Positions 34,507 to 39,984 of a stretch of 64,000 bases of DNA are shown one piece after another. Position numbers and translations under genes: made by a program. The stretch comes from Myxococcus xanthus (GTDB lineage Bacteria; Myxococcota; Myxococcia; Myxococcales; Myxococcaceae), in contig NZ_CP017174.1 in assembly GCF_006402735.1 (NCBI RefSeq), forward strand, positions 7,420,001-7,484,000, given 5' to 3'. The notes under the pieces are model-generated. The model was not told the origin of the DNA, did no database searches, and saw only the letters and a list, made by a program, of their open reading frames with translations. Numbering within the stretch: the stretch's first letter is position 1; each line of letters starts with the position of its first letter.

Positions 34507-36813
34507 ATGCGTATGCCGTCCTCGTTGTCCCCGCTGTCCCTCCTGGCCCTCGGTTGGGGCTTGTCCGCGCCAGTCACGGCGCTCGCCGCGAACACGCCGG
34601 ACCTGCGCCCCGGCGTCATCCGGAGCACCGCGGCGCTGGGCCCCGCCCGGGTCCTCACCGGTGCCGAGGCGGAGAAGGCTCGCCTCGTCACGGGCATCGA
34701 CCGTGCGGCGAGCGGCACGTATGCCCTTGCCACGGGCGCCGGGCATGTCTTCCACCGGACGGCCCAGCCCATCCATGCGTTGAAGACGCTCGACGTGCCG
34801 CGTGCGTCGGTCCAGCTCCACACCTGGCAGGAAGAGACGGCGGACGGCAGGCGCCAGGACTTCTTCGCCTACAGTCAGGGCGGCGTGGCGTTGCTGGGCC
34901 GCGTGCAGCCGACCGAGTACCTGGTGCGGCTGGAGCACGCGCGCTTCGACCCGCTGAAGGGCGCACAGCCCCTGGTCGCCGGCCTGCTCACCGCGGACGC
35001 AAGCAACACGCTGCACCTGGTGCAGTTCCAAGCCACGCCCCTGCCGGAGTACCGCGACGCCATCAAGGCCGCGGGGGGCAAGGTGCTGCGCTTCCTCACG
35101 GACCACACCTTCCTCGTGGAGATGAACGCCAGCACGCACAAGCGCGTCGCCGGGCTGCCCTACGTCCGCTGGGTGGGCGCGTACCATCCGGAGTACCGGG
35201 TGGAAGGCGTGCTGCGCGAGTCCCTCCAGGGCCGCGCGTTGAAGCTGGAGCCGCAGCGCTACTCCATCATGGTGGGCGAGCGCGGCGCGGCGCGGCAGGG
35301 CGAGGTCGCCTCGCTGGTCCGCACGCTGGGCGGCACGGTGGAGCTCATCGAGGCGGGCGGCCTGCGCGTGGAGGCCACCCTCACCCAGTCCCAGCTGGAG
35401 CGGCTGGTGCGCTCCAATGCCGTGCAGTACGTCGACCGCTGGGGCGGTCCGGGTGAGCTCGACAACAACAACGTCCGCGACGTGGGCGGCGCGACCTACC
35501 TTGAAGGCGTGGAGGGCTTCACGGGTCAGGGCGTCCGCGGCGAAATCTTCGACACCGAGCTACGCACCACGCACCAGGAGTGGGCAACCCCGCCGCTCAT
35601 CCACAGCACGTCCACCACGGGCAGCTTCCACGGCACCGCCTGCTACAGCATCAACTTCGCCCGAGGCGTGGACGCGAACGCACGCGGCCTGATTCCGTCC
35701 GGACAGGGCATCTTCTACCGCTACAACGAGTCCTCCCAGTTCGGCGGCCCCAAGTCCCGCTACGACATCAACCGGGAGCTCATCGACCCAGCCGGGCCGT
35801 ACCGCGCCGTGTTCCAGACATCCAGCGTGGGCAGTGCGCAGGTGACGGGCTACACGACCATCTCCGCGGAGGTGGATGACTACCTGTTCCAGTACCCCAT
35901 CCTCAGCACGCAGTCGCAGAGCAACACCGGCAACCAGAACTCGCGGCCACAGGCGTGGGCGAAGAACATCGTGTCCGTGGGTGGCATGTACCACTACGAC
36001 GACGCCAGCCGCGGGAATGACCGGTGGAACGGCGGCGCCAGCGTGGGCCCGGCGGCGGACGGCCGCCTCAAGCCGGACCTGTCGTACTACTACGACCTCA
36101 TCCGCTCCGCGTCGAACACCAGCAACACGTCCTACACCAACTTCGGTGGTACCAGCGCGGCCACGCCGCAGACGTCGGGGCACTTCGGCCTGCTGTTCCA
36201 GATGTGGCACGAGGGCGTCTGGGCGGGCTTCGGTGGTGGCGCGGATGTCTTCGCCAGCCGTCCGAAGATGGCCACGGCGAAGGCGCTGATGATCAACATG
36301 GCGCATCGCTACAACTGGCTCGCGGGTGGCTCCAACGGCGACCTGACGCGCGCGCGGCAGGGCTGGGGCACCGCGGACGTGAGGCGCCTGTATGACCGCG
36401 CCGCCGTGACGAGCATCATCAACGAGACGGACACCCTGCTCCCGCTCGGCACGAACACGTACAACGTCACCGTGGCTCCCGGGGAGACGGAGCTCAACGT
36501 CACCATGGTCTACACCGACCCCGCCGGCACGGTGGGCGCGGCGCACGCCCGAATCAACGACCTGTCGCTGCGCGTGACGTCCCCCACCGGCGTCGTCTAC
36601 TGGGGCAACAACGGCCTGACGGCGAGCAACGTCTCCACGCCGGGCGGTGTGTCGAACACGGTGGATACGGTGGAGAACGTGTTCCTCGCCACCCCCGCCG
36701 CCGGCACGTGGACCGTGGAGGTGATTGGTGACGAAATCATCGAGGACACGAATCTGGCGACTCGCGTGCTGGACGCGACCTACGCGCTGGTCGTGAGCGG
36801 CGGCAAGATTTAG
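34507..36813 (+). CDS. Exported subtilisin-like serine protease (S8)
   Basis: 768 aa. A signal peptide (1 to about 28) precedes a propeptide of about 310 residues. The catalytic domain has Asp 349 in EIFDTELRTTH, His 375 in SFHGTACYS and Ser 550 in FGGTSAATPQTSGH. The D-to-H spacing is only 26 residues, short for the family. A C-terminal beta-sandwich (about 640-768) with TVAPGETELNVTMVYTDP and GTWTVEVIG resembles a proprotein-convertase P domain. Secreted proteases of this type are common in predatory myxobacteria (general knowledge). AAGGAG lies about 7 nt upstream of the start. Confidence 0.9.
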   Translation: MRMPSSLSPLSLLALGWGLSAPVTALAANTPDLRPGVIRSTAALGPARVLTGAEAEKARLVTGIDRAASGTYALATGAGHVFHRTAQPIHALKTLDVPRASVQLHTWQEETADGRRQDFFAYSQGGVALLGRVQPTEYLVRLEHARFDPLKGAQPLVAGLLTADASNTLHLVQFQATPLPEYRDAIKAAGGKVLRFLTDHTFLVEMNASTHKRVAGLPYVRWVGAYHPEYRVEGVLRESLQGRALKLEPQRYSIMVGERGAARQGEVASLVRTLGGTVELIEAGGLRVEATLTQSQLERLVRSNAVQYVDRWGGPGELDNNNVRDVGGATYLEGVEGFTGQGVRGEIFDTELRTTHQEWATPPLIHSTSTTGSFHGTACYSINFARGVDANARGLIPSGQGIFYRYNESSQFGGPKSRYDINRELIDPAGPYRAVFQTSSVGSAQVTGYTTISAEVDDYLFQYPILSTQSQSNTGNQNSRPQAWAKNIVSVGGMYHYDDASRGNDRWNGGASVGPAADGRLKPDLSYYYDLIRSASNTSNTSYTNFGGTSAATPQTSGHFGLLFQMWHEGVWAGFGGGADVFASRPKMATAKALMINMAHRYNWLAGGSNGDLTRARQGWGTADVRRLYDRAAVTSIINETDTLLPLGTNTYNVTVAPGETELNVTMVYTDPAGTVGAAHARINDLSLRVTSPTGVVYWGNNGLTASNVSTPGGVSNTVDTVENVFLATPAAGTWTVEVIGDEIIEDTNLATRVLDATYALVVSGGKI

Positions 36814-36840: not shown

Positions 36841-36877
36841 CCGGGCCGGTGTTCCCTTCGTGGGAGTGCCGGCCCGG
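36841..36877 (+). terminator. Terminator hairpin after the subtilase gene
   Basis: CCGGGCCGG and CCGGCCCGG form a perfect 9-bp stem around a 19-nt loop that may pair internally; it ends in ACTGTTTCT. It starts 28 nt after the stop and also faces the convergent GyrB-like gene. Confidence 0.6.
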
Positions 36878-36892: not shown

Positions 36893-37969
36893 CTACCGCG
36901 AGCCGCTCGTACGCCGTGCCAGAAGTTTCGGCGTCACAGGGTGCTCGCGGAGGAGTTCGATGAGCAGGGGCTGGAGCTGCTTGCGGATGGCCTCTTCCAG
37001 TCCTGGGATGGCCAGCAACTCCTTGGTGGGGCCCGCGAACGCCATCTGCCTCCGGGGTCCACTCACGGCGACGATAGCCGTCAGTCCCTGCGCCACCCGA
37101 TCCCAGGGGAATGCCCCCCGCGTCTCACCTGAGAGCTTCGCCAGTGCACCCCGGAGCGCCTGAGTGACGCCCTTCACGTGTGCGCCATGCCGCACGGTCC
37201 GCACGGCGTTGGCAAATGACAGCAACGTGCTGCCCTCGTCTTCGCACCACTGCAATGCACACTGGACACGCAGTCCGTCCCACGTGAAATCGAAGGCGAT
37301 CGGCTCGGGGTGGAGACGCGTCCTCGCCTCCGTGAGGACGTGAGCCCACTGCGCCACACCGCCAGGCAAGTGCCACAGCGTGCGCTCCTCCCGCTGGAGG
37401 TCCACGAAAGCAACGCGCAGCCCGGGAGCGAGCGCCGCCAGCTCGCTACAGCGCCGGGAAAGGCGCTCCCGGTCGAAGGCGAGCACCTCGAAGATGGTGG
37501 CGTCTGGAACGAAGTGGAGACGTATTCCTCTTTCCGCGGAGACGGGCATCGGCGCCATCGGCGTCACCTCAGACACGTCTCCCTGAGGACGGCCATGCTC
37601 GCCCATCAAGCGCCACTGACGCCCCTCCGCCCAGATGTCCACCTGGTAGCGTGACGACAGGGCGAGAGATACGACGAGCATGCTGTCCCAGAACAGCCCC
37701 ACTTCCAGTGGCTGCCCCAAGAATCGCTTCCCTTCCACCACGGGGACCACATCACCGATAGGTACCGTACGGCTGGTAGAGAAGAGGGCAATGGAGTTGT
37801 CCCCGCCCAGCTCCAACACCACGTCTCCGCACTGCCCAAGGATCGCCTCTTCGAGAACCGACTCCAGGAGGAAATAGACGAGGTGATGCAGCCCGAGTTC
37901 GCCCGTGTCGCCACAGTACATGCCAGGACGCTTGCGCATCGCATCGAGGATGTCGGTGGGTGGCACCAT
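36893..37969 (-). CDS. GyrB-like ATPase/transducer protein with eroded ATP site
   Basis: 358 aa. The N-terminal MRKRPGMYCGDTGELGLHHLVYFLLESVLEEA aligns with GyrB, but the catalytic Glu 42 and Asn 46 equivalents are Phe 33 and Ser 37. The DDGRGIP motif (STSRTVP here) and the GGLHGVG box are both lost. The transducer part (about 215-358) is well preserved: HVKGVTQALRGALAKL and FAGPTKELLAIPGLEEAIRKQLQPLL, keeping the Lys of the QTK loop as PTK. No TOPRIM domain is present. It is probably a scaffold or sensor rather than an ATPase; the gene may regulate or derive from gyrase. TAGAGT at 37976-37981 is 6 nt before the ATG. Confidence 0.75.
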   Translation of the reverse strand: MVPPTDILDAMRKRPGMYCGDTGELGLHHLVYFLLESVLEEAILGQCGDVVLELGGDNSIALFSTSRTVPIGDVVPVVEGKRFLGQPLEVGLFWDSMLVVSLALSSRYQVDIWAEGRQWRLMGEHGRPQGDVSEVTPMAPMPVSAERGIRLHFVPDATIFEVLAFDRERLSRRCSELAALAPGLRVAFVDLQREERTLWHLPGGVAQWAHVLTEARTRLHPEPIAFDFTWDGLRVQCALQWCEDEGSTLLSFANAVRTVRHGAHVKGVTQALRGALAKLSGETRGAFPWDRVAQGLTAIVAVSGPRRQMAFAGPTKELLAIPGLEEAIRKQLQPLLIELLREHPVTPKLLARRTSGSR

Positions 37970-38064: not shown

Positions 38065-39984
38065 ATGGCCCGTGACGTCTCCTTCTTCGACCAGCTCGGC
38101 TCGCTCCTCGCCCAGGAACGCGAGGCCGAGAAAGCCCGCCTGGCCGCGCTCGCCCAGAGCCTCACGCTGCATGAGCGCGAGGAGCACGGCCTGTCCGTCC
38201 TGGACCTGGAGTCCATCGAGGAAGAGGTCGGCCTGGGAGGCCGCTTCCTCGTCACCCTGGGCCGCGCGGACCGCCGCCCTCTGCCCACCCGGCTGCACAA
38301 CGGTGACCTGGTGGCCGTGCTGCCCCGCCGCGCGGAGGTGAAGGAGCCCGCCCGCGCCCTCATCTCCCGTGCCACCGCCACGCGCATCCAGCTCGCCTTC
38401 GACCGCTCCCCGCCGCCCTACGTCCACGAGGGCCTCCTGCGCCTGGACGTCGTCCCCAACGACGTCACCTATGACCGGCTGCGCGCCGGGCTCCAGCGCA
38501 TCAAGGCCCTGGACAAGGGCGCCGAGCGGCACAAGCGCGAGGTCGTCCTGGGCAACGAGCCGCCCCGCTTCGACAAGCCCCGCGAGTTCGAGCCCACCCG
38601 CCCCCTCAACCCCGAACAACAGGACGCCACCGCCCGCGCGCTCGCCGCCGAGGACTTCTTCCTGGTCCACGGCCCCCCGGGCACCGGCAAGTCCACCGTG
38701 CTGGCCGAGGTCGCCGCCCAGGCCGTGGCGGACGGCAAGCGCCTGTTGTGCACCGCCGCCAGCAACGCCGCCGTGGACCACCTGTTGGACTTGTGCCTGG
38801 ACAAGGGCCTGCGCGCCATCCGCGTGGGTCACCCCGCCCGCGTGGCCGCGCGGCTCCAGGAGCACACCCTGGACATCGTCGTGGAGTCCCACCCGGACCG
38901 CGCCGTCTCCCGCGACCTCTTCGACGAGGCCTTCTCCCTGCTGGGCTACGCGCGCCGCCAGCGCAACCAGGGTCGCAGCCGCGAGCGCTTCGCCAACGCC
39001 CGCGCGTCCACCTCGGAAGCCAAGGGCATGCTCGACGAGGCCCGCGCCCTGGAGCGCAAGGCCGTGAAGTCCGTGCTCGCCAACGCGGACGTCATCTGCG
39101 TGACGCTCTCCAGCCTCGACTCCGGCGTGCTCTCTGGACAGCAGTTCGACCTGGCGCTGCTCGATGAAGCCACCCAGGCCACCGAGCCCCTGGCGCTGCT
39201 GGGCTTCCTGCGCGCGCCCCGCGTCATCCTCGCTGGCGACCCGCAGCAGCTACCGCCCACCGTCCTCTCCCAGGAGGCCGCGAAGGCCGGCCTGGGCGTG
39301 AGCCTCTTCGAGCGATTGCTCAAGGACCACGGCGAGGGCGTCAAACGCATGCTGCGCGAGCAGTACCGGATGAACGCGCGCATCATGGATTTCCCCTCGC
39401 GGGAGATGTACGGCGGCGAGCTTCGCGCCCACCCCTCCATCGCGGACCGCACGATGGACGCCGTCCTCACGCCCGGCGCGGACGTGGATGCGCCCCCCGT
39501 GCTCTACCTGGACACCGCGGGCAAGGGCTTCGACGAAGAAGTCGAGCCCACCACGCGAAGCCTCTTCAACCCCGGCGAGGCTGGACTGGTGGAGGCCCGC
39601 GTGCGCGCCCTGCTCGCCGCCGGACTGGCGCCCCGAGAGCTGGCGGTGATTACCCCCTACAGCGCCCAGGCCCATCAGCTCCGCGAGCGCATCGAGGCGC
39701 TCAGCCCGGAGGTGGAGGTCGACACCGTCGACGCGTTCCAGGGCCGGGAGAAGGACGCCATCATCGTCTCCCTCACCCGCTCCAACAGCGAGGGGCAGCT
39801 CGGCTTCCTCACGGACCTGCGCCGCATGAACGTGGCCCTCACCCGCGCCCGCCGCCACCTCTTCGTCGTGGGCGACTCCGCCACCCTCAGCGGGCACCCC
39901 TTCTACGCGCGCTTCGTCGAGGGCACCCAGGCCAGCGGCGGCTACCGCTCCGCCTGGGAATGGCCCGACGCCCAGGACACCTGA
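38065..39984 (+). CDS. SF1 helicase, UPF1/IGHMBP2-like
   Basis: 639 aa. An N-terminal beta-rich region (about 50-150) precedes the helicase core. Helicase motifs: Q-motif NPEQQDATARAL, Walker A GPPGTGKST (about 212-220), Walker B LALLDEATQATEPLALLG, motif III GDPQQLPPTV, motif IV REQYRMN, motif V VDAFQGREKDAIIVSLTRSN and motif VI NVALTRARRHLFVVG. This is the UPF1-like group, acting on RNA or DNA; the actual partner is unknown. The ATG at 38065 begins MARDVSFFDQL, which looks like the family start; a longer reading adds an unlikely peptide overlapping the divergent gene. Confidence 0.9.
   Translation: MARDVSFFDQLGSLLAQEREAEKARLAALAQSLTLHEREEHGLSVLDLESIEEEVGLGGRFLVTLGRADRRPLPTRLHNGDLVAVLPRRAEVKEPARALISRATATRIQLAFDRSPPPYVHEGLLRLDVVPNDVTYDRLRAGLQRIKALDKGAERHKREVVLGNEPPRFDKPREFEPTRPLNPEQQDATARALAAEDFFLVHGPPGTGKSTVLAEVAAQAVADGKRLLCTAASNAAVDHLLDLCLDKGLRAIRVGHPARVAARLQEHTLDIVVESHPDRAVSRDLFDEAFSLLGYARRQRNQGRSRERFANARASTSEAKGMLDEARALERKAVKSVLANADVICVTLSSLDSGVLSGQQFDLALLDEATQATEPLALLGFLRAPRVILAGDPQQLPPTVLSQEAAKAGLGVSLFERLLKDHGEGVKRMLREQYRMNARIMDFPSREMYGGELRAHPSIADRTMDAVLTPGADVDAPPVLYLDTAGKGFDEEVEPTTRSLFNPGEAGLVEARVRALLAAGLAPRELAVITPYSAQAHQLRERIEALSPEVEVDTVDAFQGREKDAIIVSLTRSNSEGQLGFLTDLRRMNVALTRARRHLFVVGDSATLSGHPFYARFVEGTQASGGYRSAWEWPDAQDT

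Follow-up and report, generated by a model that had tools for sequence, protein, structure and literature searches.

The window, i.e. the whole 64,000-nucleotide stretch of Myxococcus xanthus DNA analyzed here, carries a gene that, judged from sequence and structure comparison, almost certainly derives from the N-terminal 43-kDa half of a GyrB-type protein and has lost the residues of the nucleotide site (Table 1). The gene belongs to a family of accessory character, whose members are inserted, lost, tandemly duplicated, recombined and sometimes broken. The best explanation overall, which we put forward tentatively, is that the family encodes non-enzymatic binding proteins, mimics or decoys of GyrB.

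Table 1. The GyrB43-like gene, its segments and the flanking features in the window
Feature	Positions	Strand	Description
S8 (subtilase) protease	34525..36813	+	Flanks the insertion site; also found where the GyrB-like gene is absent
Terminator-like hairpin	36841..36877	+	3' of the convergent protease gene
GyrB43-like gene, putatively ATP-dead	36893..37969	-	ATG start, 358 aa; GHKL-fold domain and transducer, no TOPRIM
Codons 201-358	36896..37369	-	Transducer domain, PF00204 at residues 204-348, loop Lys316 (PTK)
Codons 64-97	37679..37780	-	Remodelled former ATP-site/lid segment; equivalents of DNGRGIP, LHAGGKF, lid Tyr and GGLHGVG lost
Codons 1-37	37859..37969	-	Shortened N-terminal arm; RKRPGMYxG and GLHHLV kept, then Phe33 (E42 equivalent) and Ser37 (N46 equivalent)
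SF1 helicase, UPF1/SMUBP-2 type	38065..39984	+	Flanks the insertion site; Pfam AAA_11/AAA_12, SMUBP-2/HCS1 1B domain

Fold and nucleotide site of the window protein

A longer N-terminus for the 358-residue open reading frame is excluded, because the fourth codon upstream of its ATG is an in-frame TAG. The first residue of the product presumably corresponds to about residue 9 in E. coli GyrB numbering, and both the alignment and the upstream stop indicate that the N-terminal arm for N-gate dimerization is incomplete. At the other end, the frame stops after the transducer, TOPRIM and the GyrA-binding C-terminal part being absent. The loss of TOPRIM had been claimed in the original prediction and was confirmed: the transducer (PF00204, E = 1e-17) was the sole Pfam domain match in the protein, Pfam returning no match for TOPRIM or for the ATPase domain, and only 79 bp lie between the stop codon and the convergent protease gene, about half of this space being taken up by the terminator-like hairpin. 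A hairpin resembling this one was seen by eye at the empty site in another genome (G067). The promoter fared less well, as no sigma-70-like site was found between positions 36800 and 38200, where the gene had been given its own -10 element, in a scan that myxobacterial promoters may not fit. The same genome also encodes a full-length GyrB (832 aa) and a full-length ParE (643 aa) elsewhere.

Among the topoisomerase families tested in NCBIfam, gyrB (TIGR01059) scored best: the window protein aligns to positions 12-368 of the 639 of this model (E = 1.5e-49) with 169.1 bits, which lies below the cut-off of 882.4, as compared with 132.3 and 86.9 bits for the two parE models. Sequence searches matched, well above chance expectation, residues 8-351 to the E. 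coli GyrB43 structure 1ei1 (E = 4.3e-38) and residues 4-357 to PDB entry 3cwv_A (E = 1.2e-198, about 84% identity). The latter, a crystal structure released in 2008 as 'DNA gyrase, B subunit, truncated' from Myxococcus xanthus, is probably that of an orthologue; a full-text search of the open-access literature for 3CWV found no paper and no function attached to the structure.

AlphaFold2 gave an unusable model from a 3-row alignment (pLDDT 34.8) and a good one from 31 rows, in which 28 GyrB-type proteins from viral contigs were aligned with the window protein and two of its near relatives (mean pLDDT 84.5, pTM 0.84, with pLDDT below 50 at residues 1-3 and in the former ATP-lid segment, residues 68-94). 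This model matched 3cwv_A with a Z of 44.0 and an rmsd of 1.8 over 339 residues, and the E. coli GyrB43 (1ei1_A) with a Z of 36.1 and an rmsd of 2.9 over 336 residues at 29% identity; Foldseek also matched it to GyrB43 structures. Note that the model leans to the GyrB fold because its alignment held 28 GyrB-type rows, and that 3cwv provides independent experimental support from a relative. The comparison with GyrB43, which the original prediction had proposed as a check, thus points to a predicted GHKL-plus-transducer fold that has been kept, and the best sequence and fold matches listed for the protein are all type IIA enzymes.

The residues that would hold the nucleotide are gone from this fold. 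At the equivalents of Glu42, Asn46, Asp73 and Thr165 (E. coli GyrB numbering), the window protein has Phe, Ser, Ser and Ile, the first two (Phe33 and Ser37) having been pointed out as Phe and Ser in the original prediction; the D(D/N)GRGIP and GGLHGVG boxes, described there as missing, indeed read STSRTVP and GLFWDSM. The erosion extends to the relatives and is not peculiar to this copy: none of the 32 aligned family members has the Glu42, Asn46 (Mg ligand) or Asp73 equivalent, and three have that of Thr165, whereas 14/14 GyrB and 7/7 ParE retain all four. The LHAGGKF loop has likewise lost its His and Lys in every member (kept in 0/32), as has the lid its Tyr (0/32). Other positions are held throughout the family, with Arg12, Pro15, Gly20, Gly126, Asp156, Gly204, Pro223, Trp241 and Leu296 in 32/32 members, Arg14 in 31/32 and Tyr18 in 28/32. 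Conserved residues have also been gained relative to GyrB and ParE, namely Trp113 and Trp119 (31/32 each, at positions where GyrB has mostly Gln/Tyr and ParE Lys/His), Ser106 and Phe287.

The picture of an RPGMY start and a transducer with its PTK lysine being retained was correct for RKRPGMY (residues 12-18), Lys316 and the fold, but not for the transducer of the family as a whole. The equivalent of the loop lysine, Lys337, is present in 16/32 members (Arg in 6) against 14/14 GyrB and 7/7 ParE, and of the columns invariant in the GyrB/ParE rows used, the family retains on average 39% of the 28 in the transducer part, where 7 belong to the ragged C-terminus, and 41% of the 50 in the ATPase part. 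Since retention is alike in both halves, a transducer kept and an ATPase domain lost would be too simple a description: each domain has kept its fold, and what has disappeared is the set of ATP residues. Overall, the sequence, the solved close relative and the predicted model all support the view of a catalytically dead GyrB fragment. Lacking the ATP ligands, part of the arm and TOPRIM, the protein is therefore not a gyrase subunit in the ordinary sense.

Distribution, selection and genomic setting of the family

A family profile built from 27 members and applied to 195 genomes of the phylum at E <= 1e-80 found 34 places in 26 genomes, all of them Myxococcaceae, from five genera; 21 of the 27 genomes of the genus carry the gene. 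The weakest of the 34 places, a deletion allele, scores 311 bits, and full-length GyrBs reach at most about 254 bits among the matches listed. The profile gives 239.6-252.2 bits on the GyrB rows scored and 171.4-191.0 bits on seven ParE rows, so that by score GyrB is the closer of the two.

In a tree with 14 GyrB and 7 ParE reference rows, taken from many available and including no Topo VI B rows, the 32 near-full-length family proteins group in a single clade, supported at 100/100 and recovered in 100% of 200 bootstrap trees, which divides into two subfamilies. Because the tree is rooted on ParE, nearness to GyrB rests on the scores, and because the GyrB group has a support of 62/74, the family may stand beside or inside GyrB; the programme also issued a warning about meeting long branches and about the long ends of three rows, a caveat for all deep joins. 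Both the tree and the residue counts use 32 of the 34 places, the G078 deletion allele and the C-terminally cut second G069 copy being omitted. Three further copies lie outside both the tree and the list of places: the cut copy of G006 (244 bits, within the GyrB range), a divergent 409-aa frame in G052 (E = 4.6e-50) and the broken fourth copy of G059. Two subfamily II members, in G073 (L132:9783-11447) and G061 (L133:8488-10152), sit in 554-aa frames that are longer at the N-terminus by about 176 residues, probably because the frame runs on too far, across the end of the protease gene.

The 34 places, the single clade and the same losses in 32/32 members rule out a pseudogene confined to the window copy. 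A phage origin was also rejected: 73 phage records were matched, the 15 listed were 28-30% identical, two of them annotated 'DNA gyrase, B subunit', and when viral contigs were searched with the alignment of subfamily I, no relative was confirmed. The PADLOC defense library returned nothing but a weak DrmC match (E = 0.0044).

We computed dN/dS for 13 chosen pairs. Those of the window copy with its four nearest relatives gave 0.116 (G066), 0.26 (G077), 0.277 (G060) and 0.205 (G063), which at the sequence level indicates purifying selection on the gene in the window's group. Of the nine other pairs, three are low as well (0.154, 0.197 and 0.238), three from subfamily II lie at 0.38-0.46, two from subfamily I at 0.41 and 0.43, and the highest, G064a/G054 of subfamily I, at 0.67; in two pairs, the N-terminal third alone reaches 1.07 and 1.09. 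Some copies are broken, by an in-frame internal deletion in G078 and by loss of the C-terminal part in the second G069 copy and in G006. Such breakage, together with the weak constraint in some pairs, implies that some copies may be dispensable.

The gene also shows signs of mobility. Between the window copy (36896-37969) and its G077 counterpart (L039), dS falls from 0.91 (codons 1-95) to 0.49 and then 0.21 along the gene, a mosaic that suggests recombination between alleles. The GC3 of the window gene is 0.782 against a neighbor median of 0.913, and GC3 lies below that of all measured neighbors in 14/27 members. Tandem copies occur in G064 (3), G059 (3 and a broken fourth), G070 (2) and G058 (2), with within-array identities of 42-67% where measured (G064, G059 and G070). 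The window's own genome holds a scrap of a second family copy at 7.873 Mb (G000:C1:7873317-7873524; L004/L005), in which two stretches resemble the window protein, one of 27 residues at 67% identity and one of 40 residues at 50%, each in another frame than the other and with the middle missing; the family profile found no match there in the translated frames.

At the helicase locus, the site is filled in 10 of 26 genus genomes, nine with the family gene within 1.5 kb of the helicase and one, G079, with two genes in between. The window copy had been noted as adjoining a UPF1-like helicase. This adjacency is real but is not a meaningful linkage, since 26/27 genus genomes have the helicase (E <= 1e-100) and 16 of these 26 have no family gene beside it. 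A functional link to the helicase or to the S8 protease was rejected, both being present without the family gene. Of the 11 subfamily II sites in the tree, 9 adjoin a trypsin-like protease, the exceptions being the second G062 site and G035; nor is this protease found beside the family gene of G006, which lies outside the tree. A link to it was rejected too, as nine further genus genomes carry the protease without a listed family gene beside it. Both of the commonest family sites thus adjoin proteases that also exist without the family gene. Other copies adjoin a DUF4261 gene, an erythromycin-esterase-like gene or a sigma-54 activator. Across the sites, no recurring partner or toxin gene was found in the neighborhoods called and scanned, where the Pfam scan covered part of the neighbors, and none of the neighborhoods examined points to a consistently adjacent toxin. 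One of the two extra genes between family gene and helicase in G079 (L044:10107-11572) has an AAA_21 (AbiEii-like) match. The insertion site of the window may be one that collects accessory genes.

Possible modes of action

A protein of this kind would work without ATP, by binding, and we regard a binding-only mode of action as likely. With an ATPase-transducer surface like that of GyrB but devoid of the catalytic and lid motifs, it would be a mimic that competes with GyrB or ParE for the factors docking there, be they toxins, inhibitors, regulatory proteins or the DNA in the clamp; alternatively, it would bind gyrase or topo IV itself as a non-productive partner. That it is a decoy or mimic directed at gyrase-directed factors is possible, though we would not yet rely on it; the gyrase inhibitor or decoy suggested in the original prediction is likewise a possible reading. 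The accessory, duplicated and recombining character of the family fits a role in conflict or recognition better than housekeeping.

A more specific version of the mimic reading follows from the toxins that attack this part of gyrase. Cpe1 is reported to cleave GyrB between Gly101 and Gly102, within LHAGGKF (PMC12136450), and Fic proteins to AMPylate a conserved Tyr of GyrB/ParE (PMC7479194). The 32 members counted have neither the AMPylated Tyr nor, in the loop that Cpe1 cuts, the His and Lys, which would make the family a modification-proof decoy: toxin-proof GyrB43 mimics, spread and tandem-amplified in predatory myxobacteria, would soak up toxins or inhibitors directed at gyrase or topo IV. 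We hold this version to be quite unlikely, and the loss of the toxin sites is not specific to it, because the targeted motifs belong to the ATP site and would disappear whenever ATP binding is given up, whatever the cause. In the genome of the window, GyrB itself (L002) reads LHAGSKF, with Ser for the second Gly of the Cpe1 site, and ParE (L003) has LHAGGKF intact; the LHAGSKF of GyrB could matter for resistance to a Cpe1-like toxin.

The protein might instead act directly on the gyrase or topo IV of its own cell, as a modulator or inhibitor whose RKRPGMY/GLHHLV face and transducer would bind GyrB/ParE, for instance by accepting the N-terminal arms of these proteins, and would prevent or adjust the closing of the N-gate. 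The best retained N-terminal residues (Arg12, Pro15, Gly20, Arg14 and Tyr18) are indeed those common to GyrB and ParE, and the GyrB43 fold and the scores closer to GyrB than to ParE are consistent with such a role. However, N-gate dimerization in GyrB is driven by the N-terminal arm and ATP, as the title of entry 1ei1 agrees, and part of that arm and the nucleotide site are missing here. In addition, the family was not detected (E <= 1e-80) in six of the 27 genus genomes, and a permanent gyrase inhibitor would be costly and should be tightly controlled, with no regulator being linked to the gene. We thus consider a modulator somewhat unlikely.

The residues gained relative to GyrB and ParE (Trp113, Trp119, Ser106 and Phe287) would fit a DNA- or protein-binding scaffold unrelated to gyrase today, in which a dead GHKL domain and transducer serve a new complex as TOPOVIBL/MTOPVIB do for SPO11; MTOPVIB (PMC11077084) offers a precedent. 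The transducer part of the window copy has a net charge of +6, against +1 in the genome's own GyrB, but this charge is inconsistent over the 27 members counted (-5 to +12), and no recurring neighbor offers itself as the partner. A scaffold of this kind is, in our estimate, unlikely.

Slow decay of selfish or neutral gyrB duplicates, relics moved by recombination with no function beyond folding, would account for the patchy presence, the low GC3, the broken copies (G078, G069 second, G006, G059 fourth and the scrap in the window's genome) and the dN/dS of 0.38-0.67 in some pairs. It accounts poorly for the dN/dS of 0.12-0.28 of the window copy against its four nearest relatives, for 32 near-full-length open frames that share their losses and the gained Trp pair across five genera, and for a relative, 84% identical, stable enough to yield crystals; we find it improbable.

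Finally, a Fic_N/Fic gene (L057:6598-7641) lies directly ahead of the three open and one broken family copies of G059 (L057:6598-12236) and a 43-residue Fic remnant at the same place in G058 (L134:7851-7979), as if the decoy were the antitoxin that neutralizes an adjacent AMPylase, but this is very improbable and the pairing was rejected as one of a single lineage without association: only 1 of 49 Fic matches in the 27 genus genomes, many of them drafts and compared by eye, lies beside a listed family gene, the AMPylated Tyr is absent in 32/32 members, and tblastn with the G059 gene found no other relative than the G058 remnant in the fetched neighborhoods given.

Comparison with known systems

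The protein is already known as the deposited structure 3cwv, to which the window protein is alike over residues 4-357, with about 84% identity and a fold match of Z 44; a family-level description was not found in the open-access literature searched, nor were the family-wide losses, the single clade, the selection or the accessory behavior. A review on protein inhibitors of gyrase (PMC10886550) contains neither 'decoy' nor 'Myxococcus'. With GyrB (TIGR01059) and GyrB43, the window protein has the GHKL plus transducer fold in common; GyrB has, in contrast, the ATP ligands, the lid, the full N-terminal arm, TOPRIM and the C-terminal parts.

If the family binds gyrase-directed toxins, it would represent immunity by target mimicry, and if it binds gyrase, a new endogenous modulator; were the toxin-proof version of the mimic reading true, it would be a bacterial 'integrated-decoy' family built from a conserved antibacterial target. 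The family lends itself to immediate testing, since the crystal structure of a close relative has been solved and Myxococcus xanthus and E. coli are tractable hosts. It also serves as a warning that a short 'GyrB' annotation in myxobacteria need not mean gyrase.

Fic AMPylases, Cpe1 and MfpA are inhibitors or toxins of other folds and are not known to be relatives of GyrB. They meet the family at its target: the first two bind or modify the half of GyrB that the family would mimic (PMC7479194 and PMC12136450), and MfpA acts on the GyrB ATPase region, as the title of entry 6zt5 states, i.e. on the same half.

Dead topoisomerase B-subunits are known from meiosis, as Topo VI B-like proteins, and a bacterial GyrB-derived family that only binds would be a parallel case. 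Topo VI, the family of TOPOVIBL/MTOPVIB, is type IIB. In PMC11077084, Arabidopsis MTOPVIB is described as having no ATP binding, ATP-independent dimerization and DNA binding, and the likeness to our family lies in this mode, a degenerate GHKL domain without ATP binding that is kept as a binding partner; for the window protein, the loss of ATP binding is what would be expected from its motifs. The two differ in that TOPOVIBL/MTOPVIB are eukaryotic, belong to another topoisomerase family and have SPO11 as a partner, whereas no SPO11- or GyrA-like partner is known for the family described here. By analogy, the MTOPVIB precedent indicates that GHKL-transducer proteins can serve as functional binding partners even when they do not bind ATP.
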